A DNA stretch of 64,000 nt. Origin: Bartonella krasnovii. GTDB taxonomy: Bacteria; Pseudomonadota; Alphaproteobacteria; Rhizobiales; Rhizobiaceae. Position numbers and translations under genes: made by a program. The first letter of the stretch is position 1; every line of letters starts with the position of its first letter. This document shows positions 10,928-63,705 of this stretch, in pieces. The stretch covers positions 806,001 through 870,000 of the forward strand of contig NZ_CP031844.2 in assembly GCF_003606345.3 (NCBI RefSeq), written 5' to 3'. The notes under the pieces were generated by a model, which saw only the letters and a program-made list of their open reading frames with translations, did no database searches and had not been told where the DNA came from.

Positions 10928-11938
10928 GTGATATTGTTTATTGAAAAAAATATCATGTTGGTCAACAATGTAAAAATGGCTAGTCTTATAAAAATAGCGC
11001 ATCGATGTGTGCAGTTATGCGTGGTGCTTACTTTATTGATCTGGAGCCACTATGCTTTTTGTGAAGAAGGAGTAGATCAGCAGCAGGGATCATCACGGAG
11101 TTTTATTCTAAAGCCCCAAGAGCAGGAAAAAGGGAGCTTAGAATCTCAAGCACAACTCATTTTGAATGCTCGATTAACAAATAGCCGTCAAGATATTGAG
11201 AAAGGGCTTGTTTGGCGGGTTTATGCTCCTATTCTAGGGATTGATAATAAATTACCGTTAGTGGCAACCCATAAGGGGGGAAGTGCGCGTTTTGATTTAG
11301 AGCCAGGAAGCTATCTTGTTCATGTTTCATTTGGTCATATGAGTGCTGTGCGCTATATTCGTCTAGAAAATGGGCAGAGTCTTGTGAAAAATTTTTATCT
11401 TGAGGCAGGTGGTCTTATTTTAAATGCGACACTGCTCAATGGTGAAATCAATGAAAAGGAATTACGTTTCACGATCTATGAGGATGAAAAAGAAAATGAT
11501 GATACCGGGATAATTTTATCAAATGTTAAACCTCAATCTGTTGTGCGTTTAAAAGCTGGCCGCTACCATGTTGCTTCCCATTATGGTTCCATTAATGCGA
11601 CGGTACGTTCGGATATTCAAGTAGAAGCTGGTAAAATAACGGAAGTTACTCTTGAGCATCAGGCTGCTCAAATTGTGTTAAAGCTGGTACGACAAGAAGG
11701 AGGAGAAGCGCTTGCCGATACAAGTTGGTCTCTTGCCAATGATTCTGGTGATATTGTTTATGAAACAGTTGGCGCTTATGTTTCACTCGTATTAGCGGAG
11801 GGAGAGTATATTGCCATTGCTAAAAATAAAGATAAAATTTATCAAAAGGTTTTTTCTGTCGTTTCTGGTCATGATGAAGATATAAGCGTGGTGGCGAATG
11901 AACAAAATATGCAACGAATTGATGAAGATATGGATTGA
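10928..11938 (+). CDS. secreted protein with three beta-rich repeats, unknown function
   Basis: I do not recognise this 336-residue protein. It begins with a signal peptide-like stretch (RCVQLCVVLTLLIWSHYAFCEEG), so it is exported. After that I see three repeats of about 85 residues, each with the pattern GxYxVxxxxGxxxxxxxxxVxxG: LEPGSYLVHVSFGHMS, LKAGRYHVASHYGSIN and LAEGEYIAIAKNKDK. This looks like PEGA-like or carboxypeptidase regulatory-like beta-sandwich units. The GTG at 10928 has a good site (GAGTGGGGA); an ATG at 10955 or 10976 is possible. It lies 13 bases after erpA and just before ccdA, so it is probably in that operon. Confidence 0.8.
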   Translation: MILFIEKNIMLVNNVKMASLIKIAHRCVQLCVVLTLLIWSHYAFCEEGVDQQQGSSRSFILKPQEQEKGSLESQAQLILNARLTNSRQDIEKGLVWRVYAPILGIDNKLPLVATHKGGSARFDLEPGSYLVHVSFGHMSAVRYIRLENGQSLVKNFYLEAGGLILNATLLNGEINEKELRFTIYEDEKENDDTGIILSNVKPQSVVRLKAGRYHVASHYGSINATVRSDIQVEAGKITEVTLEHQAAQIVLKLVRQEGGEALADTSWSLANDSGDIVYETVGAYVSLVLAEGEYIAIAKNKDKIYQKVFSVVSGHDEDISVVANEQNMQRIDEDMD

Positions 11939-26659: not shown

Positions 26660-28177
26660 ATGACATATAGAGATGCTCAAGGCCGGTTAAAAGGGCGTAA
26701 GCCTGTTGCTGTTATTGATATTGGATCAAATTCTGTTCGTTTAGTTATTTATGAGGGGCTTGTTCGCTCACCAACGGTTTTGTTTAATGAAAAGATCCTT
26801 TGTGGTCTTGGTCATGGTGTGGCAAAAACAGGTTTTTTAGAAGAAAAAGCGATGAAAATGGCGTTGCGAACACTCAAGCGGTTTCGTACGCTTTGTCAAC
26901 AAATTGGGGCTGATGAGGTCTATACTTTAGCAACGGCAGCAGCACGAGATGCAAAAAATGGCGTCACGTTTATTCAAAGTGCTGAAGATATTTTACAAAA
27001 TAAAATACATCTGCTTTCAGGAAGTGAAGAAGCGATGTATTCAGCCTATGGGGTTGTTTCTACTTTTTATCAACCAAAGGGACTTTCTGGAGATCTTGGT
27101 GGTGGAAGTTTAGAACTTATTGATATTGATCATTCTGATGTCGGTGAAGGGATAACGCTTCCATTGGGTGGTTTACGACTACAATATATGTCAAATAATG
27201 ATAGTGCTATTGCTGCGAAAATTGTACATGAGCAATTTTATAAATCTTCTGTTTCACGTACACGTAAAAGTATGGCACGTCATTTTTATGCTGTAGGGGG
27301 GACATGGCGTAATTTGGCAAAACTTCATATGGCAATGAAACACTATCGGCTCCCTGTTATGCATGGCTATGAAGTTGATGCCATGGAAATGGAGAGTTTT
27401 TTACGTCTTGTCGCAGGCGGCAATATTGATAATATGAGGGGGATTGCGGCGGTTTCACAGAATCGTCGGAAACTTTTATCGTATGGAGCAATTGTCCTTA
27501 TTGAACTCATTCAGTGTATGGGATTTGAAAAGATAATCTTTTCTGGTGCTGGCGTTCGTGAAGGTTTTCTTTATTCACGCTTGCCACAGGCGATTCGGCT
27601 TTCAGATCCTCTCATTGCTGCCTGCACAGAAATGGCTATTTTACGGGCACGTTCTCCAAAACAAGCAGAAGAGCTTATTGATTTTACGACGAATGCCTTT
27701 GATGTTTTTGGAATTTCAGAAACTGAAAATGAATGCCGTTATCGTCAAGCGGCTTGTCTTCTTGCTGATATTGGTTGGCGTATACATCCGGATTATCGGG
27801 GTAATGAAGCAGCTAATCAGATAGCATTAGGGTCTTACCCAGGAATTTCTCATGAGGGGCGCCTTTATGCAGCGCTTGCTGTTTTTTTTCGCAATACGAG
27901 TGTACTGATTGATAAAGAATCTCTTCCTATTTTTCAATTAGCAAAGCAAAATCTCATTGAGAAAGCACGTATTCTTGGTGAAACCATGCGTATTGCTCAT
28001 CTGTTTAGTGCTTCTGTTGCAGGGATTTTACCTCATTTACTGTGGCTTAAAAAAGAAGATCATATTGTTTTGCAGATTCCAAAAAATTATGCTGGATTAT
28101 TAGGAGAACGTCCTCTTGGACGATTAAAGAAGTTATCAAAAATAATAAATCAACCTCTTGCTTTTGAAATTTCTTGA
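26660..28177 (+). CDS. ppx: exopolyphosphatase / Ppx-GppA family
   Basis: It degrades polyphosphate, or pppGpp in the GppA role. The 505-residue protein has the ASKHA-fold phosphate motifs AVIDIGSNSVRLVIYEG (about residues 17-33) and GDLGGGSLELIDI, plus a C-terminal helical HD-like part. The 6-base spacing to ppk gives the usual kinase/phosphatase operon, which implies control of polyphosphate as the main role. The stop is followed by a 499-base gap. Confidence 0.95.
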   Translation: MTYRDAQGRLKGRKPVAVIDIGSNSVRLVIYEGLVRSPTVLFNEKILCGLGHGVAKTGFLEEKAMKMALRTLKRFRTLCQQIGADEVYTLATAAARDAKNGVTFIQSAEDILQNKIHLLSGSEEAMYSAYGVVSTFYQPKGLSGDLGGGSLELIDIDHSDVGEGITLPLGGLRLQYMSNNDSAIAAKIVHEQFYKSSVSRTRKSMARHFYAVGGTWRNLAKLHMAMKHYRLPVMHGYEVDAMEMESFLRLVAGGNIDNMRGIAAVSQNRRKLLSYGAIVLIELIQCMGFEKIIFSGAGVREGFLYSRLPQAIRLSDPLIAACTEMAILRARSPKQAEELIDFTTNAFDVFGISETENECRYRQAACLLADIGWRIHPDYRGNEAANQIALGSYPGISHEGRLYAALAVFFRNTSVLIDKESLPIFQLAKQNLIEKARILGETMRIAHLFSASVAGILPHLLWLKKEDHIVLQIPKNYAGLLGERPLGRLKKLSKIINQPLAFEIS

Positions 28178-35234: not shown

Positions 35235-35747
35235 ATAATAGAACGTTTTTATTTCAAGCCTATAAAAGCGTAAAAGAAATGCTTATGTGTTTTTAATATA
35301 TGATAATATATTGATTTATAATAATATTATTTTCATCTCAAATAAGAGGCTATAATATCTATAGGTTTTCTTATTTCAACCTTCTTGATGTTGAAACAAT
35401 CAAAATGATCTGTTTGTACACCACAAGTGAATTGGTATTATAAATAGAAATTTATAAAGAAAAGAATTAATTTTTTTATGAGTTTGTTTCAAGTACCAAG
35501 AGCTGTTGTAAGATTAGGAACAGTAAAAATAGGTTTACACGCTTCATAAGTGTGAAGATGGTAGAAAGTTTATATCATTCATAAAGGCTATCGTGAAATG
35601 ATTTGATGCTTTGAGAAGTGTATTATCTTTAAAACAAATATACAAATATTCAAGTCAAGGGTGTCCTATTTGGAGGCATTCTGTTTTGTGTGAAAGGCAT
35701 CTCTTTTTTGTTCAAAAGAGATTTTATTAATTTTTTCTTAAGCATGA
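35235..35747. other. gap between convergent parC and MFS transporter gene
   Basis: No gene seen in 513 AT-rich bases. Short inverted repeats occur near 35377-35395 (TTCAAC with GTTGAA) and at 35699-35722, the latter listed separately. Confidence 0.45.
35699..35722. terminator. hairpin after the MFS gene
   Basis: A 9-base stem (ATCTCTTTT with AAAAGAGAT) with a 6-base loop lies 25 bases beyond the stop of the minus-strand transporter gene and is followed by TTTTATT on the plus strand. Its position between convergent genes suggests a terminator; strength is modest. Confidence 0.4.
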
Positions 35748-55030: not shown

Positions 55031-55312
55031 ATGGCAATTGTGAGTTTCAAACATAAGGGCTTAAAATTATTTTATACAACAGGGGCTACAAAAGCTATTA
55101 GAGCAGATCACGTAAAGAAATTACGCGTTATCTTAACGGCTTTAACAAGTGCTACGACGCCTGAAATGTTGAAAGCACCTGCCTTTAAAATGCACCCTCT
55201 TAAAGGTGAACTTACAGGATATTATTCTATATGGGTGAATGGAAACTGGTGTGTTACTTTTTGCTTTATAGGAACAGATGTGGAGCTTGTTGATTATCAA
55301 GACTACCATTGA
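55031..55312 (+). CDS. higB: HigB-type (RelE superfamily) toxin
   Basis: A 93-residue RelE-superfamily protein, probably a ribosome-dependent mRNA endonuclease. The pattern is typical of HigB: an N-terminal strand with FKHKGLKLFYTTG, a helical part with KLRVILTALTSATTPEML, KMHPLKGELTGYYSIWVNGNWCVTF, and the C-terminal VELVDYQDYH. It is followed 15 bases later by an HTH antitoxin, the toxin-first order typical of higBA. An inverted repeat precedes it. Full length, so likely functional. Confidence 0.88.
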   Translation: MAIVSFKHKGLKLFYTTGATKAIRADHVKKLRVILTALTSATTPEMLKAPAFKMHPLKGELTGYYSIWVNGNWCVTFCFIGTDVELVDYQDYH

Positions 55313-55327
55313 TGAAAGGAGCAAAAT

Positions 55328-55627
55328 ATGATGCATAATCCTGCACATCCGGGTGAAGTTCTAAAAGTAGCTTTCTTGGAAGAAATGGGGCTATCAATAC
55401 AAAAATTAGCCGACCACCTCCATATGACAAGAGCTTCTCTATCAAGAGTGATTAATGGGCATGCTTCTATGAGTACAGAGCTTGCAATTAAATTAGAATT
55501 AGCTGGTTTTAGTAAAGCTAAATTTTGGTTAGATATGCAAACAAACTATAATTTATGGAAAACAATGCAACAGACACAACCGCTTATTTCTCCTCTAGTT
55601 TCTGAGGATAATCAAACACCGCTTTGA
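55328..55627 (+). CDS. higA: HigA-type HTH antitoxin
   Basis: A 99-residue XRE/VapI-family protein that neutralises HigB and represses its own operon. It starts MMHNPAHPGEVLKVAFLEEMG, a strong HigA signature, and has the helix-turn-helix SIQKLADHLHMTRASLSRVINGHASMSTELAIKLELA. A start one codon downstream (55331) is equally possible; AAAGGAG lies upstream. It is convergent with the broken integrase gene. Confidence 0.9.
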   Translation: MMHNPAHPGEVLKVAFLEEMGLSIQKLADHLHMTRASLSRVINGHASMSTELAIKLELAGFSKAKFWLDMQTNYNLWKTMQQTQPLISPLVSEDNQTPL

Positions 55628-55682: not shown

Positions 55683-56721
55683 TTAGTTTTTTTGAAGTTT
55701 TTTAATTGCTTCTATTGCTAGGCGTTTTCTATCGGCTGTTTTGGTATAAAGGGATGCCATTTTATCTTCTGTCCAGCCAAATAGTGCTTTCATTTGTGAA
55801 ACTGTAGCACCAGCATTAGCAGCGCGTGTTGCTGCTAATTTTCGCAATCCATGTGCTGATTTTTTAATTCCCGCCGCATTACATGCTTCACGAAATAGAT
55901 TGCCAAAACTTTTTTTTACGAGTTTATTTCCGTTTTTTCCGTATATGAATGTTTCATTACCTATAGGACCAATTTTAAGAGTTTCTTCTAATTCAGGTAA
56001 AATTGGTAAAAAAAACGTCTGTTTTAAATTGGCTCTTTTCTGCTTTGAGATGAATAATATTATCTTTAACATCTTTCCAGCCAATGCGAACGGCATCACC
56101 ACGGCGTAACCCGGTATAAAGAAGAACATCAATCCATACGCGCTCATGGGTACCGACAGACCAATGTTGATAATATTTATCTATGTCCTCTTCTAGCCAT
56201 GGTCGCAATCCTTCAGTGTTAAGAGATTTCGGGGCTTTGATATTAAAAGCGGGGTTTCTGTTTAAAAGAGCATTATCAACCGCCCAATTAAAAAGACCAT
56301 TTAAAGCCGTTAAAAAGTGTCTTGCAGCTGCGGGAGTATTGCGTCTTCTTTCTACAGCATCAAGAATATGTTGTTTTTCTATGCTTTTATAGGCGCGATT
56401 ACCAATATGTTTAGAAACATTATTCAGAATTCGATATTTAACTTTTTTTGTTGACTCTGATTGATTATGCCATTGCATGCTTTGTAAATACTGATGCAAT
56501 AACCAGTCAAAAGACCCTTCTGTAAGCTTAGTGCGTTTCATTATCTTAGAAGAGCCATTTTGCGCTTGCTTAAGGGCAAGTGTATAATTGTCAACGAATT
56601 CTTGTGTTCCGTAAGTTCCTTCAATGCGAAACCGTGGTCCATGACCAATACGTACATACCATATGATTTTACCATGGCGTGTACGTTCACGAACAAGATA
56701 GGGTGGACGACGCTTTGGCAT
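55683..56721 (-). pseudogene. tyrosine-type phage integrase, frameshifted
   Basis: The frame from 56721 (MPKRRPPYLVRERTRHG) gives the arm-type and core-binding domains and the first catalytic Arg (R206 in YTGLRRGDAVRI). It shifts at a run of eight A on the plus strand (56008-56015). With seven, it would read on without a break into LPILPELEETLKIG... and reach HGLRKLAATRA, FGWTED and the nucleophile Tyr in MASLYTKTADRK, ending at 55683. All catalytic residues survive, so the lesion is recent, a sequencing error, or slippage-prone. It is probably the integrase of the lambdoid-type remnant whose YqaJ and ERF genes follow upstream. Confidence 0.85.
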
Positions 56722-56723
56722 GG

Positions 56724-56975
56724 TTAGAATTCTATGCCGTCAACAGAGGGGCAAGAAGGGTGATTACTACATTCTTCTTGTTCATTTTCAAGAGGAGGAA
56801 AATCTTCAATACTGTAAGCATTATTCCTTGTTGTTGGTGATGTTATAGTTTTATTGATATGAATTAATAATTCTCCGGTAGGTTTTATTTCTACAACCTC
56901 TGCGCCTTGTTTTTTGGCTTCTCTTAAAGCGTGCGCAATGGCTGGTTGTGTTATGGTAGGTGGGCGCTGTGCCAT
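56724..56975 (-). CDS. small prophage protein, unknown function
   Basis: An 83-residue protein from ATG at 56975 (MAQRPPTITQPAIAHALREAKKQGAEVVEIKP), preceded by AAGGGG. The N-terminal part looks like a helix-strand phage early protein (AREAKKQGAEVVEIKPTGELLIHI). The tail is acidic with two cysteines (ECSNHPSC). I do not recognise the family. An upstream start at 57083 would add 36 poorly conserved residues. It ends two bases before the integrase start, so it belongs to the same phage operon. Confidence 0.65.
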   Translation of the reverse strand: MAQRPPTITQPAIAHALREAKKQGAEVVEIKPTGELLIHINKTITSPTTRNNAYSIEDFPPLENEQEECSNHPSCPSVDGIEF

Positions 56976-57087
56976 GTCAGTTCCCCTTAAATTTAGGTGC
57001 AATTCACCCGTGTTGTGAATCATGATTTTTTTTGAAAATTGTGGTAAGAGGGTGGGGGTGCTGGGAGGAGAAAGCACCCCCATAACA

Positions 57088-57711
57088 TCAAGCGGCTTTC
57101 GCTAAAATCTTTTGCATCTCTTGGTCTATTTCTGCTAAAAAGATTTCGACCGCTTGATTGATTTGTTCGATTTGTTCTTCATCACGATTGATGCGTTTGA
57201 TCTTCATTCTCAAACCAGTGGATTTGCCTACAAAGTTTGGATTATAGCTCATGAAATCACACCATTTACGTCCCGTACAAGCCATTTGGAATTGCATTTG
57301 TGTGATATATTCGGGCTTGATATTACTATCTATAAAGAAGCGTAGATGATTTGATGATTGTGGGCATTTAATCTCAATTAAACCGTCCTCACCAATAAGC
57401 CCATCAGGACTAGCACCAGCCATTTGGATTGTAGGATGTTGAATGAAACCACACCTTGTGACCTCTGTATCATAAATGAATGCATATTCTCTCAAGGGAT
57501 CTTCTTCATAGTCAATGCCCCATTGCATAGCGGGCGTTATATAAGATTGGCTTATTTCTTCTGTTAATCGCTCTGTCATAAGTTTTATTTTGTAGTCTTC
57601 ATATTTGCTTGTAGGCATTCCCTTGGCTGTTTTACTGAGTACGTTATAAACGTTTGAAGCGGTGACTTTACCTAAACGGGCTTGAAACCATTCTGCTGTT
57701 CTTTGTTCCAT
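57088..57711 (-). CDS. YqaJ-type viral recombinase (lambda exonuclease-like)
   Basis: A 207-residue PD-(D/E)XK nuclease of the YqaJ family that resects double-strand ends for phage recombination. The start MEQRTAEWFQARLGKVTASNVYNVL is the family hallmark. The catalytic core is seen in ASPDGLIGEDGLIEIKCPQSS with the E-I-K of the motif, followed by QMQFQMACTGRKWCDFMSYNP. It follows the ERF gene by one base if the ERF frame is restored, so they were one unit. The two together form a single-strand annealing recombination system. Confidence 0.92.
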   Translation of the reverse strand: MEQRTAEWFQARLGKVTASNVYNVLSKTAKGMPTSKYEDYKIKLMTERLTEEISQSYITPAMQWGIDYEEDPLREYAFIYDTEVTRCGFIQHPTIQMAGASPDGLIGEDGLIEIKCPQSSNHLRFFIDSNIKPEYITQMQFQMACTGRKWCDFMSYNPNFVGKSTGLRMKIKRINRDEEQIEQINQAVEIFLAEIDQEMQKILAKAA

Positions 57712-57712
57712 T

Positions 57713-58380
57713 TCACACCGCCTTTTGTTGCTCTTGTTGTGCTTTATTCATTTGAGAGCGTTTCTTTTTTCTCAAAGCAAACAAAACGGTTTGGGCTTGT
57801 TTAAAGACATCTGTGTGAGATTTTTTACGCCTATAAAAGCAAGAATATCGTTTTCCTTTGTTTGTGTATGTTCTATTAATTCTTTGATTTCATTCATCTG
57901 TTCAGAAGAGATACCAGCAAGAATTGTGGCTCCATCTGTATCGTCTTCTTTTCTTGCTACATTAAGAAGCATGCCTAAGAGATATCTGCGTGCGTAGGTG
58001 ATAGTGGAGCCAACCGCTTGTATGCTGTTTTTGCTCCCTGTAGCGTCAAAGGGAAATGTTCCTTGTGTTGATATTTCATGTCCCAATATATGCTTTAAAG
58101 TCATTTCTACGGTTATACCGTTTGAATCCTGTTCTTTGATCTGAGAAAACAAGGCAAAGTGATGTTTTGCAAGAGTTTTCTTGATTGCATCAATATATTT
58201 ATCAAGCGTTGTATAGATACTTTTAGTATGTGTATTAAGGGCATTTTGTTCGATGTTTTTATATTCCATTTGCATAGTAGAAAGATCACGGACAAAGTTC
58301 TGGCGCTCTTGTCGTTCTATCTCCTTTTCTCGCAATTCGAGAAGGCTCTTGAGACGGTGTAGTTTGACACTAGGTTTTAT
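57713..58380 (-). pseudogene. ERF-family single-strand annealing protein, truncated and frameshifted
   Basis: The frame matches ERF (essential recombination function) proteins: LLELREKEIERQERQNFV, then YTTLDKYIDAIKKTLAKHHFAL and GSTITYARRYLLGMLLNVARKEDDTDG. Homology begins before any start codon: in-frame codons run back to a TAA at 58402-58404 without ATG or GTG, and only a TTG at 58335 could start translation. At the 3' end the frame stops at 57772. One extra base in the short run near 57800 would restore SLKQAQTVLFALRKKKRSQM and end at 57713, one base before the YqaJ start. I read it as cut at the 5' end, probably by the neighbouring Mu-like element. Confidence 0.7.
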
Positions 58381-58817: not shown

Positions 58818-59348
58818 TTAAGCCGTATCTTGTGTAGTTTTGGAATGTTCTTTTTCAGCTTCTATTTGGCGCTTTAAATGCAATTTTAGAAGAGGCAAGG
58901 TAAGCTCGACTTCTTCCATGTCGTTGATGTCTTGAACCAGCTCTTGCAGTTTTTTATAAAGTTCCGCCGCGAGTTCCGCTATATCTTCAGGGGGGAGTTT
59001 TATATTTTCATCGCGATAGGTTGTATAAGCGATGCGACCAAGTTTTTTCATGAGACCAGCAGGGATAGTTTGTGGTTTAAAGCCTGCTGCTTTTGCCTTT
59101 GCCATATCACTAAACATCTCGCCTTCTCCAGTGACGATCCAATGAGGATTAATGTTATAGGCTGTATAATAAGCATTAATTACTGAGGACGGTGGCTCAT
59201 GTGCTCCAATTTCGTAATTAGCAAGAGTACCTCGTTGTAAATTAAGGCGTTGCGCAAAAATACCCCGTTCTTCGTTTCCGAATATTCGTCTTATTTCACG
59301 CAACCGCTTTGCAAGTTCTGTTTGTGGTTCTCTTTCAGGACGTGCCAA
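58818..59348 (-). CDS. Mu-like prophage repressor (XRE HTH)
   Basis: A 176-residue protein with an N-terminal helix-turn-helix (AKRLREIRRIFGNEERGIFAQRLNLQRGTLANYEIGAHEPPSSVINAYY). It also has NPHWIVTGEGEMF, common to phage and alphaproteobacterial CI-like regulators, then a helical C-terminal part (LAAELYKKLQELVQDINDMEEVEL). It lacks a LexA/CI peptidase domain. Divergent from ner across 152 bases that hold a large inverted repeat. The position (left end, opposite strand to the transposition genes) is that of the Mu c repressor. Confidence 0.85.
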   Translation of the reverse strand: MARPEREPQTELAKRLREIRRIFGNEERGIFAQRLNLQRGTLANYEIGAHEPPSSVINAYYTAYNINPHWIVTGEGEMFSDMAKAKAAGFKPQTIPAGLMKKLGRIAYTTYRDENIKLPPEDIAELAAELYKKLQELVQDINDMEEVELTLPLLKLHLKRQIEAEKEHSKTTQDTA

Positions 59349-59500: not shown

Positions 59501-59806
59501 ATGACAACCACACAAACATGCATCCAAGTATGGGATCGCCATAGTATTTTAGCTGAGCTACGCCGCCGTAATATGACCTTGGCGGAGCTCGCGAAAGCTT
59601 ATCAACTCTCCTCATCCAGTGTTCAACATATCTGGACACGGTCTAACGAGAAAGCCGAACGCGCCATTGCCGATTTTATCGGTTTGCCCGTCGAGCAGGT
59701 TTTTAGCGACCGCTACCCCAAAAGTCGCCGTCGCATTTTTAAAGCAGCAAAACATGCCAATACAGATTCTGTTGTTTCTTCCCTATCACGCGGTAATGCT
59801 GCTTGA
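59501..59806 (+). CDS. ner: Ner-like HTH regulator
   Basis: A protein of about 101 residues with the Nlp/Ner-family pattern: WDRHSILAELRRRNMTLAELAKAYQLSSSSVQHIWTRSNEKAERAIADFIGLPVEQVFSDRYP. In Mu, Ner damps early transcription and repressor expression. I use ATG at 59501 with AGGAG at 59488-59492; an in-frame start at 59465 would sit in the leader hairpin. It is the first gene of the plus-strand early operon. Confidence 0.88.
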   Translation: MTTTQTCIQVWDRHSILAELRRRNMTLAELAKAYQLSSSSVQHIWTRSNEKAERAIADFIGLPVEQVFSDRYPKSRRRIFKAAKHANTDSVVSSLSRGNAA

Positions 59807-59873: not shown

Positions 59874-60014
59874 ATGTCTAAAGATCAATACAAAATAGAC
59901 AAGAAAAATTGCATACTGTTGCCTCATCAAGCGGCCGATTGGATGGGTTGTTTTTTAGGTTTTTGTGGTCAAGTTTTCTTTATCGGGGGTGGTGGTTATG
60001 GTTGCGGCTTATAA
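59874..60014 (+). CDS. possible 46-residue peptide
   Basis: ATG at 59874 follows AAAAGG with an 8-base gap and opens 46 codons (MSKDQYKIDKKNCILLPHQAADWMG...). A hydrophobic, glycine-rich end follows (FLGFCGQVFFIGGGGYGCGL). It overlaps the next gene by 17 bases, which fits coupled phage genes. The family is not recognised and the gene is small, so support rests on the start site and position alone. Confidence 0.4.
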   Translation: MSKDQYKIDKKNCILLPHQAADWMGCFLGFCGQVFFIGGGGYGCGL

Positions 60015-60396
60015 TTTATGGACCCCAGATGTCAGACGCGATATCGTTAATCCTTATTCGGAAGTTGAACGATTACAAATTATGCTTTCCTGTTCTTTTA
60101 AGGCAGTGAGTGGTGGATTTCGGCATTTGCCAATCCGATATATTATTGACCCTCCACATGGCTTATTTGATGCGGCGTTAGCACGACAGATTGCTATTCA
60201 TATTTTGCATTATCAGTTTGAGGTTCCACGGCGGCGTATTGTCGCTATACAAGAACGGCAGCGGACTTCTATTTCTCTGTCACTTCAAGTGATTAATCGG
60301 CGATTAATGGAACCAGTCTTTGCTAGAGCTTATCGAAGATGGGCGGGGCGTGCGATGGATTTGTTTTTACGAGAAATGGACAAGGCGGTTGGATAA
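59998..60396 (+). CDS. DnaA domain IV-like phage protein
   Basis: A 132-residue protein. The segment ALARQIAIHILHYQFEVPRRRIVAIQERQRTSISLSLQVINRRL resembles the DNA-binding domain IV of DnaA (helix-turn-helix with a basic loop), without the ATPase part. It may bind DnaA-box-like sites or act as an early regulator; both are inference. ATG at 59998 follows GGGGGTGGTGG. Its stop overlaps the start of the parB-like gene (TAATG), so translation is coupled. Confidence 0.6.
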   Translation: MVAAYNLWTPDVRRDIVNPYSEVERLQIMLSCSFKAVSGGFRHLPIRYIIDPPHGLFDAALARQIAIHILHYQFEVPRRRIVAIQERQRTSISLSLQVINRRLMEPVFARAYRRWAGRAMDLFLREMDKAVG

Positions 60397-61256
60397 TGGC
60401 ACGGTTTCAAGAGATTGCTTTAGATTTGATTGTTGTACCGGAGCGTATACGCCCTGTAGATGATGAGCATGCCAAGGCGCTTGCGCAATCGATGGCACGA
60501 GAAGGGTTGATGAACCCGATTACAGTGCGCCATACACCCAATGCGAAAGAGGGGCATTACACGCTGATTGCTGGCGCGCACCGGTTACGGGCTGCGGAGC
60601 TTTTGGGGTATAGCGCCATTGATGCCGTTGTGGTGCAAGCCGATAAAGAAAATGCTGCGCTTTTAGAGGTTGCGGAAAACCTCTTTCGCAATGAATTGTC
60701 AGTGATTGACCGCGCTTTGTTTGTGCAGACGTATCGCGAATTGTGGGAAAAGAAGTATGGGGAGATTCAACGTGGTGGTGACCATGGTAATCAATATACA
60801 AAGGACAAAGTGGCAAAGGGTCAAGTTGACCCTTTGCCAAATGATGGTGACTTAAATGGCAAAGTGCAAAGTTTGCACTTTGCCAAACATGTAGCAGATC
60901 GTATTGGTTTATCGAAACGTGCAGTGCATTATTTAACGAAAATTTCCCAGCATTTACAGCCGGAGTTGCGGTCTGTTTTGCGGGGGACGGCATTGGCGGA
61001 TAATCAAGCGCAGTTGTTAAAGTTGGCGAAGATGGAGCCGGTTGCGCAACGGCGGGTAGCGATTGCTTTGCAACAGGTTGAAGGGGATTTACGGCGGGCT
61101 GTTGATTTGGTCAATGGGATTAATATACCCCCGAAAGTTAATGAGCAGGAACGGGTTTTTGCTCAATTGTTGGGGGTGTGGCAGAGAGCGGATGCACAGA
61201 CACGGGCGCGGTTTTATGATTATTTAAATAAGCAATCGGGGGAGGAGCAGGCATGA
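60396..61256 (+). CDS. ParB-like nuclease-domain protein
   Basis: A protein of about 286 residues with a ParB N-terminal domain: IRPVDDEHAKALAQSMAREGLMNPITVRH, GAHRLRAAELLGY (about residues 60-72) and NLFRNELSVIDRA. After a linker (about 130-165) comes a helix-turn-helix (HVADRIGLSKRAVHYLTKI). Mu-like phages of alphaproteobacteria often carry a ParB-like gene here; it may regulate or partition. The linker DNA holds two perfect 29-base palindromes that are translated in different frames. ATG at 60396 shares a base with the upstream stop; the stop overlaps the next gene by 4 bases. Confidence 0.85.
   Translation: MARFQEIALDLIVVPERIRPVDDEHAKALAQSMAREGLMNPITVRHTPNAKEGHYTLIAGAHRLRAAELLGYSAIDAVVVQADKENAALLEVAENLFRNELSVIDRALFVQTYRELWEKKYGEIQRGGDHGNQYTKDKVAKGQVDPLPNDGDLNGKVQSLHFAKHVADRIGLSKRAVHYLTKISQHLQPELRSVLRGTALADNQAQLLKLAKMEPVAQRRVAIALQQVEGDLRRAVDLVNGINIPPKVNEQERVFAQLLGVWQRADAQTRARFYDYLNKQSGEEQA
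60811..60839. repeat. perfect 29-base palindrome inside the parB-like gene (copy 1)
   Basis: TGGCAAAGGGTCAA, one G, and TTGACCCTTTGCCA. The two 14-base arms are exact reverse complements. It codes for VAKGQVDPLP in the linker, with T of the first TGG at codon position 2. Confidence 0.9.
60857..60885. repeat. perfect 29-base palindrome inside the parB-like gene (copy 2)
   Basis: TGGCAAAGTGCAAA, one G, and TTTGCACTTTGCCA. Arms are exact reverse complements. The first 8 and last 8 bases are the same as in copy 1; three inner differences per arm are all matched on the other arm. It codes for GKVQSLHFA with T of the first TGG at codon position 3, so it is in a different frame from copy 1. Confidence 0.9.
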
Positions 61257-61711
61257 AGACGCGTGGTTCTCATCAACTTGATTTTTTTCAACGTCCGGTT
61301 TTCCCCTGTCGTGAACCTGTTGCGCAGATTGATTTAGAGCGGTTTCGTTCTCGCATTAAGCGGGCGATGGCGCGGGCTTTTAGAGAATGCCGCTATGAGC
61401 GCAGTGAGGTTGCAGAGCGTATGGCGCATTATTTAGGCATTGGTTGTTTGAGTAAGGCAAGCTTGGATGCATATGTTGCGGAAAGTAAGCAGGTGGATAT
61501 TTCCTTGCCGCGGTTTAAAGCTTTTGTGCGGGCGACGGGCGCTTTTTGGCTTTGGGATGAGGTGGTGAGTGAGGATGGTTTGCTGTTGTTGCAAGGGGAT
61601 GAAGCGCGTTTGGCAGAAATTGCAAGATTGCAGCAGGAACAGCGTGAGATTGCGGCGCGGTTGAAAGCCATGCGTGCGGTTCCGGTTCGCATTAAAAGGG
61701 GGCAGCCATGA
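61253..61711 (+). CDS. phage protein with coiled-coil C-terminus, unknown function
   Basis: A 152-residue protein found between the ParB-like and transposase genes. The middle (SEVAERMAHYLGIGCLSKASLDAYVAESKQVDISLPRFKAFVRATG) looks like a small helical DNA-binding or regulator domain. A basic coiled coil ends it (ARLAEIARLQQEQREIAARLKAM). I do not recognise the family. It overlaps the neighbours by 4 bases on each side (ATGA), so all three genes are translationally coupled. Confidence 0.75.
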   Translation: MKTRGSHQLDFFQRPVFPCREPVAQIDLERFRSRIKRAMARAFRECRYERSEVAERMAHYLGIGCLSKASLDAYVAESKQVDISLPRFKAFVRATGAFWLWDEVVSEDGLLLLQGDEARLAEIARLQQEQREIAARLKAMRAVPVRIKRGQP

Positions 61712-63705
61712 AGGAATGGTTTAGTATTGCTGAGTTGGCTGAAGCGGCTTTGCCAGGATTGCCGCAAAGTAAGGGCGGATTGCGTAAAATTTTGGCGACC
61801 ACATGGCGTCATCAAAGTGAATTGATACGTAAAGTTAAAGGCGTTTCTCGTCCTGTTGTGGAGATTCATGTTTCCTTATTGCCGGAGGGGGCGCGGGCGG
61901 CGTTGTTGTTGCGGGCGGGTGGTGTTGATGTTTTGCGCAAGGCAGAGGAAAAGAGACAAAAAGAAGCGCTTTGGGTGCGTTATGAGGGGCTTTCAAAGGC
62001 GCATAAAAGCCGTTGTGAAGAGCGTTTGAAGGCGCTTTGTTTTTGGGAAGATTTACTCCATGCCGGTATGGGGGTGCATGATGGAGCAAGTTTGTGCGCG
62101 GTGCAGTTTGGGGTGAGCCGGATGTCGCTTTTTAATTGGCGGCAGATGGTTGAAGGGTATGAGAGGTGTGATTGGTTGGCAGCGCTGGCGCCTTGTTATG
62201 GTGAGGAGACTGTTTCGCCGTTTGCACCCTGTCATGAAGAGGCTTTTGAGGTTTTATGTTCGGATTATTTACGCCCTTCTCGCCCTGCATTTTCGGCATG
62301 TTATCGGCGGATGGTTTTGGTTGCGCGGGAGAAAGGTTGGGCGCCGATCCCTTCAGAGCGGGCGTTACGCCGTCGTTTTAAGGCGCAAGTTTCCAAAGCG
62401 GTTGTAGCGTTAGCGCGTGAGGGAGAGGAGACGGTAAAAAAGCTTTATCCCGCCCAACGGCGTGATCGGCGTGCCCTGCATGCAATGGAAGCGGTGAATA
62501 TGGACGGGCATAAGTTGGATGTTTTTGTGCGTGTTCCTTGGACAGAAAAGCCTGTGCGGCTTTATTTGATTGCCATTCAAGATCTTTATTCAGGCAAGAT
62601 TTTATCGTGGCGCCTATCGGATGCGGAGACTTGGGAAATCGTACGTTTGGTGATTGGGGATATGGTGGAGACTTATGGGATACCAGAGCGTATGACCTTG
62701 GATAATGGGCGTGCTTTTACCAGCAAATGGATTTCTGGGGGTGTCTCCAACCGCTTTCGTTTTAAGATTAAGGCGGATGAACCGCAGGGTCTTTTGACCA
62801 GTTTGGGTATTCAATTGCAATGGACGACCCCTTATAGCGGGCAGTCAAAGCCGATTGAGAGGGCATGGCGTGATTTGGCAGAAGCGATTTCCAAACACCC
62901 GTTATGTGCGGGGGCTTATACGGGCAATAAACCGGATGCAAAACCGGAAGATTATGGTAAGCGGGCGATGGGGTTGGCAGAATTTAAAGCCCATGTTGGG
63001 GCGCAGATTGTAGCGCATAATGCGCAAGCGGGGCGCAAAGCGCTGACATGTGCGGGGCGCAGTTTTGATGAGACTTTTGCGGAAAGTTTAAAGGCAGAAG
63101 GGACGATTGTTCGTCAAGCAAGTGCAGCACAGAGGGCTTTATGGCTTTTGACTTCAGAGGCATTGCGTACGCAAAAGGGCACGGGTGAGATTCATTTTTA
63201 TGGCAATCGCTATTGGGCGCGGGCGTTGAATAGCTATGCGGGAGAAAAGGTGATTGTGCGCTTTGACCCGGATAATTTACATCAAGATTTGCGGGTTTAT
63301 GATTTGAATAATCAGTTGCTTTGTATGGCGCCTTGCCTTGCGGATGTGGGTTTTTACGACCAACAGGCGGCGCGTTTGAATGGGCGTTTGCGTAAAGAAT
63401 ATGTGAAAGCTGTTAAAGCAGAAAAGCAGTTGGCGGCAAAACTTGCGCCGGATCAATTGGCGGATGTTTATGCAAAAGTTGCAAGGAGGGGGGATGATGC
63501 AAAATCCAAGCGTTCTGTTTCCCCAAAGGTAAGCCGTTTGATGCCAAAGAATGCGGGGAATCTGGCTTTAAAAGCCCCTGATGCAGTTTTAGGGGATGAT
63601 GAGGCTTTGGATTCGGGAGAGTTTAGTCAACATTTGCACCAAGCTTTAAGGCGCCTTAGCGCTTCAAGTGAGGTGCATGAAGTGATCAAGTTTCCTAGAA
63701 GATAG
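61708..63705 (+). CDS. Mu-type DDE transposase (MuA-like)
   Basis: A 665-residue transposase, near the length of MuA. An N-terminal winged HTH (MKEWFSIAELAEAALPGLPQSKGGLRKIL) and further DNA-binding region precede the RNase H-like core. The triad is D266 (NMDGHKL), D332 (LDNGRAF) and E384 (KPIERAW), a spacing close to that of MuA. A beta-barrel (YGNRYWARALNSYAGEKVIVRFDPDNLHQDLRVYD) follows, then a charged tail. It carries out strand cleavage and transfer for lysogeny and replicative transposition. The partner ATPase B is not in the window and may lie beyond 64000. Confidence 0.95.
   Translation: MKEWFSIAELAEAALPGLPQSKGGLRKILATTWRHQSELIRKVKGVSRPVVEIHVSLLPEGARAALLLRAGGVDVLRKAEEKRQKEALWVRYEGLSKAHKSRCEERLKALCFWEDLLHAGMGVHDGASLCAVQFGVSRMSLFNWRQMVEGYERCDWLAALAPCYGEETVSPFAPCHEEAFEVLCSDYLRPSRPAFSACYRRMVLVAREKGWAPIPSERALRRRFKAQVSKAVVALAREGEETVKKLYPAQRRDRRALHAMEAVNMDGHKLDVFVRVPWTEKPVRLYLIAIQDLYSGKILSWRLSDAETWEIVRLVIGDMVETYGIPERMTLDNGRAFTSKWISGGVSNRFRFKIKADEPQGLLTSLGIQLQWTTPYSGQSKPIERAWRDLAEAISKHPLCAGAYTGNKPDAKPEDYGKRAMGLAEFKAHVGAQIVAHNAQAGRKALTCAGRSFDETFAESLKAEGTIVRQASAAQRALWLLTSEALRTQKGTGEIHFYGNRYWARALNSYAGEKVIVRFDPDNLHQDLRVYDLNNQLLCMAPCLADVGFYDQQAARLNGRLRKEYVKAVKAEKQLAAKLAPDQLADVYAKVARRGDDAKSKRSVSPKVSRLMPKNAGNLALKAPDAVLGDDEALDSGEFSQHLHQALRRLSASSEVHEVIKFPRR

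Follow-up and report, generated by a model that had tools for sequence, protein, structure and literature searches.

The locus and its genes

The window (the whole 64-kb stretch of Bartonella krasnovii DNA analyzed here) carries the early region of a Mu-like prophage in the order divergent repressor-like gene, Ner, small gene, ParB-like gene, PHROG 2345 gene, and MuA; a corresponding early gene order is found in phages Aussie and RcapMu. The c-repressor-like gene, near the left end of the prophage (58818 to 59348, minus strand), matches HTH_19 at 28.2 bits against a cut-off of 30.2, and by gene order its position is that of the annotated c repressor in Aussie and RcapMu. On the plus strand follow the Ner-like regulator of the early operon (59501 to 59806; HTH_35), a small early gene (59965 to 60396; PHROG 9734), the ParB-like gene (60396 to 61256; 286 aa; PF02195, E = 2.2e-12; PHROG 3264, E = 1.5e-106), an early gene of the transcription regulation category (61253 to 61711; PHROG 2345), and a MuA-type transposase (61708 to 63705; Pfam and PHROG profile matches). 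The four neighbors of the ParB-like gene scanned between 59501 and 63702 include no ParA-like product, that is, no adjacent parA of the kind that a ParABS system has. Same-strand genes after MuA match terminase, portal, minor head, major head, baseplate, tail sheath, tape measure, and tail functions (9 of the 10 ORFs tested gave a PHROG), and the last carries a Phage_GPD domain. We interpret this gene run as a single Mu-like phage whose tail is contractile. A set of integrase, YqaJ, and ERF genes (Pfam) occurs twice, flanking the prophage at 55993 to 58335 of the window and at G000:C1:900636-903441; the integrase frame of the window set is shorter and matches Phage_integrase weakly. At 55031 to 55627, a HigB-like toxin gene and, after it, an HTH_3 gene (both by Pfam) make up a type II toxin-antitoxin pair.

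The ParB-like protein consists of a ParB_N CTPase-type domain, a palindrome-bearing linker, a helix-turn-helix (HTH), and a C-terminal part. Codons 60 to 65 (GAHRLR; 60573 to 60590, plus strand) form what we take to be a ParB CTP-box-like motif, and codons 94 to 101 (ENLFRNEL; 60675 to 60698, plus strand) are presumably the second ParB box. G60 and R63 of the former and N95 and R98 of the latter are invariant in 62 sequences, which fits intact nucleotide boxes; the protein is presumably a CTP clamp. Membership of its N domain in the ParB/Noc/KorB family is supported by PF02195, by the conserved boxes, and by a profile match to Noc (7ng0; E = 8.5e-21). An HTH after the N domain, as that family has, is found by profile alignment, which places GLSKRAVHY on GKSRSYVAN; compared directly with the HTH of the solved Noc structure, the window protein scores a weak 5.1 bits, and a Pfam scan gives no HTH. 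Whole-profile comparison by hhalign with 15 chromosomal-type ParB sequences gives a probability of 99.6 to 99.8, due mainly to the N domain. Codons 174 to 179 (K R A V H Y; 60915 to 60932, plus strand) belong to the recognition helix, which was placed by profile alignment with chromosomal-type ParB; residues 175, 178, and 179 among them are singled out by the MI scan described below. The nearest relatives found for the gene are from Bartonella (71 to 86% identity), and one Bartonella MAG has a relative at 45%.

Within the linker, the first-pass annotation had described two perfect palindromes, and both are where it placed them, at 60811 to 60839 (arms 60811-60824 and 60826-60839) and at 60857 to 60885 (arms 60857-60870 and 60872-60885). 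Each is 29 nt long with 14-nt arms that are 100% complementary and a 1-nt center, and they start 46 nt apart in the linker of this ParB_N-HTH gene. The arms of palindromes 1 and 2 differ at three positions, each difference being matched by a compensating change on the opposite arm, and ORF 60396-61256 reads the two at different frame offsets (1 and 2), both as originally noted. Across the whole 64-kb window, a perfect palindrome with an arm length of 10 or more and a loop of at most 5 occurs three times, and those with arms longer than 10 are palindromes 1 and 2 alone. The outer motif, with at most 3 mismatches, matches these two and one further place in the window, the latter with 3 mismatches (shuffles, mean 0.63), and GGCAAAG-N5-25-CTTTGCC occurs in the 2.19-Mb genome at palindromes 1 and 2 and at one further place.

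The linker palindrome in related phage genes

Are these palindromes a peculiarity of one prophage? Related genes were gathered from family and class searches, GTDB genomes (80 of 98 relatives kept), IMG/VR (80 of 130 kept), and named phages. A set of 179 distinct genes leaves out those of chromosomal type (L091-L108), and a set of 150 also leaves out the Bartonella genes L109-L138 while keeping the window gene, L143, and L144. In the 179 genes, the linker accounts for 120 perfect palindromes (arms of at least 9, loop of at most 5), spread over 94 genes, and the remaining sequence for 8; one of the 8, in L132, belongs to the linker of a truncated gene. When the codons of the linkers were shuffled (20 times), such a palindrome turned up in 0.5 genes on average and in 2 at most, whereas the real linkers have one in 87 of 179, far more than chance would give. 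For arms of 11 bp, the best palindrome of the linker stays within 2 mismatches in 141 of the 150 genes (0, 1, 2, 3, and 4 mismatches in 58, 57, 26, 7, and 2 genes); the same limit is reached by 46 of the 554 windows that served as controls from these genes (1, 2, 3, 4, and 5 mismatches in 6, 40, 197, 254, and 57 windows). In 16 presumed chromosomal-type parB genes, no perfect palindrome reaches an arm length of 9. The first-pass annotation had regarded a conserved site as unlikely should the element be a one-off; instead, it recurs family-wide. Its proposal that symmetry rather than peptide is conserved is likewise borne out, in that the palindrome's sequence and frame vary across relatives while the symmetry persists. 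The window palindromes are thus one case of a general design in related phage genes.

Perfect symmetry and compensatory changes would also suit an RNA stem, and one earlier suggestion was an mRNA hairpin, the symmetry being kept for folding of the early transcript (in pausing, RNase, or translation control). A stem on the sense strand should tolerate G·U, but the mismatches in linker palindromes comprise 44 A·C/C·A, 49 A·A, and just 7 G·T/T·G, counts that coding constraint and shared ancestry also shape; among 100 distinct palindromes there are 33 CA, 28 AA, 13 AC, 3 TG, and 0 GT. The mismatch spectrum disfavors the hairpin, as do two further observations taken up below: folding predicts no covariation with recognition-helix residues, and the same sites occur outside coding sequence, after the gpD-type gene. 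We regard this explanation as extremely improbable.

Covariation of the site with the recognition helix

Bases 6, 8, and 9 of each half-site of the palindrome follow residues 178, 175, and 179 of the recognition helix encoded by the same gene, and they have switched together dozens of times. The covariation set of 132 genes goes back to 138 whose outer ten pairs contain no more than 2 mismatches; removed from these were four odd cases and all proteins with a length of 340 aa or above. The tests thus concern the better palindromes (9 of the 150 genes have more than 2 mismatches, and 4 of the 27 unseen genes described below are over the cut). With the rest of the protein removed in a partial Mantel test, palindrome distance correlates with HTH distance (r = 0.368; 0 of 500 permutations), and the corresponding values for two N-terminal parts and the C-terminal part are 0.047, -0.021, and -0.072. 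Simple linkage is a poor explanation, since segment 81 to 120 is at least as near the palindrome as the HTH and shows no covariation.

Which residues carry the signal? When protein columns outside the linker were scanned against the 11 half-site positions, the top three MI pairs were residue 178 with base 6, residue 179 with base 9, and residue 175 with base 8, followed by 203 with base 11 and 175 with base 7. The top 30 pairs are spread over the HTH (9 pairs, 36 columns), the N part (17 pairs, 107 columns), and the C part (4 pairs, 63 columns), so that below the leading pairs the ranking is largely background. Normalized MI with residues 175, 178, and 179 is 0.54 to 0.72 on the palindrome, compared with 0.14 to 0.22 in non-overlapping shifted windows; the window shifted by -15 overlaps the palindrome, and there MI is high for 178 and 175. 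By alignment, residues 175, 178, and 179 of the phage family correspond to residues 174, 177, and 178 of Caulobacter ParB, for which numbering, helix, and the N178 contact are given in the available part of PMC7383237.

The covariation can be read as a code. Over 124 distinct combinations, base 6 is G with K178 (51 of 52), C with E178 (35 of 35), and T with F178 (14 of 15), and base 9 is C with R179 (81 of 83) and A with any other residue at 179 (40 of 41). The lone Y179-C exception is the window gene itself, because its first, foreign palindrome had been scored. Base 8 is T with A, E, or P at 175 (22 of 22), G with D (5 of 5), A with K (4 of 4), and C with T (6 of 6); it is looser with R175 (C in 54 of 70, A in 8, mixed C/A in 7, T in 1) and S175 (C in 8, T in 7).

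That the pairs change together, repeatedly, is seen on a tree of the 132 tips built without linker and HTH: the counts of changes are 42 for the residue-178 class and 43 for base 6 (47 for the two jointly), 27 for residue 179 (R versus any other) and 28 for base 9 (29 jointly), and, in a looser relation, 47 for residue 175 and 39 for base 8 (54 jointly). Among disjoint nearest pairs, the base differs in 44 of 46 (178) and 32 of 33 (179) when the residue class differs and in 3 of 50 (178) and 1 of 55 (179) when it is equal.

The code also predicts sites in unseen genes. A phylum-wide search (22 of 398 genomes matched) and one IMG/VR scan yielded 27 such genes, 23 of which stay within the limit of 2 mismatches over the outer ten pairs. 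In these 23, the code was correct for base 6 in 21, for base 8 in 20 (R175 being allowed C or A), and for base 9 in 21. All three bases were correct in 20 of the 23, compared with a mean of 5.0 and a maximum of 12 in 10,000 shuffled pairings; the sequences are related, and part of the unseen set closely resembles training genes (L332 shares 72% identity with one over its best segment) or other members of the set. Base 8 alone is weak in this set (shuffle mean, 16.3; 39 of 10,000 reach the observed value). The code failed for L306 (one half only), L320, and L327. A parS-type relation, in which a palindrome is read by its cognate HTH, is in this way supported by covariation and prediction, from which we infer binding.

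Applied to the window gene, the code separates the two palindromes. The 23-bp site of palindrome 1 (60814 to 60836) has GGTC at bases 6 to 9, which is of the EERR type and not that of the window protein, and the 23-bp site of palindrome 2 (60860 to 60882) has TGCA and is the predicted own site (R175, H178, Y179). Since H178 is absent from the code, the fit of palindrome 2 rests on residues 175 and 179. Of the pair, then, palindrome 2 alone is predicted to fit the encoded protein, and palindrome 1 is predicted to fit another specificity group. An early proposal that both are parS-like sites for the encoded protein is accordingly strongly supported, for palindrome 2 alone. Palindrome 1, as a site of foreign specificity, was presumably either left by exchange or retained to load another phage's protein.

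The palindromes lie in the same early region as Ner and the c repressor, and an operator for one of these regulators had also been proposed. The covariation, which was run against the ParB-like protein, speaks against that proposal: across the family the bases track the ParB-like recognition helix, and many Bartonella loci have a different recurrent palindrome about 930 bp upstream of the ParB-like gene. We consider a Ner or c operator extremely improbable. The upstream element, the near-palindrome AAACGGATGGTTTGAGCATCCGTTT (e.g., in L115 and L116), is perhaps the operator between c and ner.

Bartonella linkers and right-end arrays

Bartonella linkers hold one to five sites, or cassettes, whose cores and outer arms are freely combined. 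An own-type site is present in 28 of the 28 Bartonella genes read, the window gene included, compared with a mean of 14.2 and a maximum of 22 for shuffled helices; this count uses wildcards for H178 (window) and V175 (L130) and leaves out three truncated genes. Own-type sites make up 40 of the 78 Bartonella linker sites, so self-binding alone does not account for the arrays.

A pattern search of the genus matched 24 of 62 genomes. Of the 24 loci (one per genome), 18 overlap the ParB-like gene, and the six outside it are site arrays. A gpD-type tail gene adjoins five of the six (gpD-type matches, 27 to 100% identity, the 100% being the query's own gene); beside the L296 array, such a gene was looked for and none was found. 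Homologous cassettes with shared flanks recur after the gpD-type gene, outside coding sequence. Eight chosen arrays contain 41 sites (at most 2 mismatches), of which 39 fall in six specificity classes if either half may match, with spacings mostly of 34 to 38, 47 to 48, or 71 to 73 bp. The window phage has a decayed array of this kind at C1:899254-899396, with one TGCA site. Because the gene run reads as one Mu-like phage, we take the gpD-side array to mark the right end of the phage. The shortened Mu-like prophage at L116:6388-7944, in which a transposase start is followed closely by a gpD end and an array, is consistent with this placement; in L116, no more than about 3 kb separates the ParB-like gene from the right-end array. 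Where a genome has at least two readable Bartonella copies, the specificities all differ in 4 of 7 cases (judged by eye, in these seven genomes only). Cassettes have evidently been exchanged between phages.

Is the palindrome, then, a mobile cassette, like the Rickettsia palindromic elements, that inserts in genes and covaries with the HTH as a by-product of linked exchange? Rickettsia palindromic elements are palindromic DNA within coding sequence. Linkers with one to five cassettes, exchangeable arms and cores, and homologous cassettes after the gpD-type gene are what such an element would produce, but outside the Bartonella set most genes have a single site at a fixed place, the N-terminal segment 81 to 120, which is no farther away than the HTH, lacks the covariation that linked exchange would bring, and specific residue-base rules foretell unseen genes. 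Nor is the searched motif dispersed in its own genome, where a look for copies in unrelated genes returned just the window pair, the decayed array after gpD, and one other motif match. The phage site, short and at a family-specific position, also differs from Rickettsia palindromic elements in covarying with the protein. A dispersed element of the Rickettsia type, as once suggested, fits poorly with a distribution in which 18 of 24 Bartonella loci are in the ParB-like gene and five of the other six are beside a gpD-type gene, and we judge the mobile-cassette reading very unlikely.

Sites near both ends of Bartonella phages, at the left in the gene and at the right after gpD, raise another prospect, namely, a self-binding site used for partition or end synapsis, with clamps at left and right pairing or protecting the phage ends. 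This reading is unlikely, although it deserves more weight than those above. Against it, no second site copy within 6 mismatches was found in 4 of 5 complete non-Bartonella phages, and no ParA-like product is among the neighboring genes scanned. Phage POA1180 (L337) has two weaker extra matches to its own linker site, at 27072 (5 mismatches) and at 35619 (4 mismatches); ten shuffles reached 7 to 8 mismatches at best.

Other ParB_N loci and further palindromes

How far does the design extend? A scan of viral contigs with the window protein alone as the query returned no relative; further scans returned 3 loci (P0001 query) and 5 loci (A5 query). An exact IMG/VR scan with the outer motif gave 38 stretches, mostly asymmetric inside, and a looser pattern, CAAAG-N14-16-CTTTG, proved uninformative. 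The ParB_N-methyltransferase-like fusion L035 has the same kind of linker palindrome (arms of 13, 3-nt loop). Among 13 further ParB_N loci, L350 (arms of 16) and L352 are positive, and 10 show no linker palindrome at the cut-offs used. Of these negatives, L342 and L345-L348 resemble ordinary ParA-type or chromosomal ParB; L341 (phage vB_ThpS-P1), L343, L344, L351, and L353 are phage type and thus count against a universal rule. In L349, a Methanoculleus virus, a ParB-methyltransferase-like gene has an even, 20-nt perfect linker palindrome at codon 122, TTTTGGAGAATTCTCCAAAA, which may be a variant of the same design.

Several other palindromes were encountered. The perfect palindrome TGGCAAAGCCTTTTGAAAAGGCTTTGCCA lies in a 233-aa frame unlike ParB at L005:885-913 and L037:2432-2460, two contigs with a similar protein, and a candidate in L038 (2 mismatches) is in no open frame above 82 aa. 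Phage RR1-B (L340) has near-identical perfect 23-bp palindromes, TGACCGGAACCGAGTTCCGGTCA, at 11530, 18994, 26071, and 31108, one with center G, which differ from the linker site of the same phage. A recurrent palindrome, AACATGCAA-TTGCATGTT, occurs at L336:321 and L339:322, near the left end of these two complete Sinorhizobium phages, and also in L164, L241, L255, and L256.

Proposed role and comparison with known systems

In total, the observations outlined above make it highly probable that the palindromes are DNA-level binding sites of a ParB-like, presumably CTP-dependent clamp, with a parS-like own site beside the codons that read it. In this model, which is built from sequence patterns and from the family to which the protein belongs, a dimer would bind the palindrome in its own gene as a parS-like loading site, close as a clamp on CTP, and slide over the early operon ner-parB-transposase. 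We posit that the protein is most likely a KorB-like local regulator of early transcription, not a partition protein. Because transposase genes adjoin, control of early transcription is our first guess and end pairing is our second; the regulatory step is itself a guess, since neither the window phage nor any of five others showed an own-type site close to the early promoter.

The KorB operator has a central G or C. KorB of plasmid RK2 is a ParB-type CTP clamp that regulates transcription from operator OB, with operators upstream of target promoters, according to the available part of PMC11790492; the phage site, in contrast, lies in the linker of the protein's own gene, and its regulatory role is one that we infer. 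With chromosomal ParB-parS, the phage system shares a ParB_N domain, an alignable HTH, and a palindromic site, but the phage site has an odd length of 23 bp, stands beside the helix codons, and changes with the helix, and no ParA-like neighbor is present. There is precedent for a parS inside a gene in B. subtilis, where parS-359 is within parB (PMC4442127, in the part available). ParB/Noc specificity is set by a few residues in or near the recognition helix; the switch residues in the available part of PMC7383237 are 173, 179, 184, and 201, whereas the covarying phage residues correspond to Caulobacter 174, 177, and 178. SGI1 carries parS mimics that hijack IncC ParB (available part of PMC10954446), and the Bartonella arrays similarly place foreign parS-like sites on another element; unlike SGI1, they combine several specificities, and hijacking would here be a hypothesis. 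A tasParB gene and palindromic stem arrays have been described with TIGR (PMC12045711, in the part available), and TIGR arrays were set aside since the sites fit the ParB-like helix.

A site that stands beside the helix codons and changes with them is unreported in the literature searched, which covered few subscription papers and no preprints, and no word starting with "palindrom" occurs in the available part of a PNAS 2025 survey of the ParB-CTPase fold (PMC12704722). In-gene parS is already known from B. subtilis; what is new, as far as that literature goes, is a site adjoining the helix codons and changing together with them.

What could such an arrangement be for? Site and helix codons lie within about 100 bp, so that one crossover can swap both. 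We tentatively suggest, as a possibility that we would not yet back, that the clamp and its in-gene site mark self and non-self among transposable phages: selection would favor divergence of protein-site pairs (about 40 co-switches on the family tree), the cassette of site plus helix would be the unit of exchange, and the poly-specific arrays of Bartonella phages, in the linker and at the right end, would load or titrate the clamps of rivals. If so, an incompatibility or immunity contest between phages would be written in about 100 bp. Placed beside the recognition helix, the site makes these genes a natural paired library of proteins and targets, one per gene, and as the code predicts the sites of unseen genes, sequence alone suffices to follow both protein-DNA recognition and its evolution in a ParB-type clamp family. 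This offers a handle on the function of ParB-like early genes in transposable phages and on their fast specificity switching.
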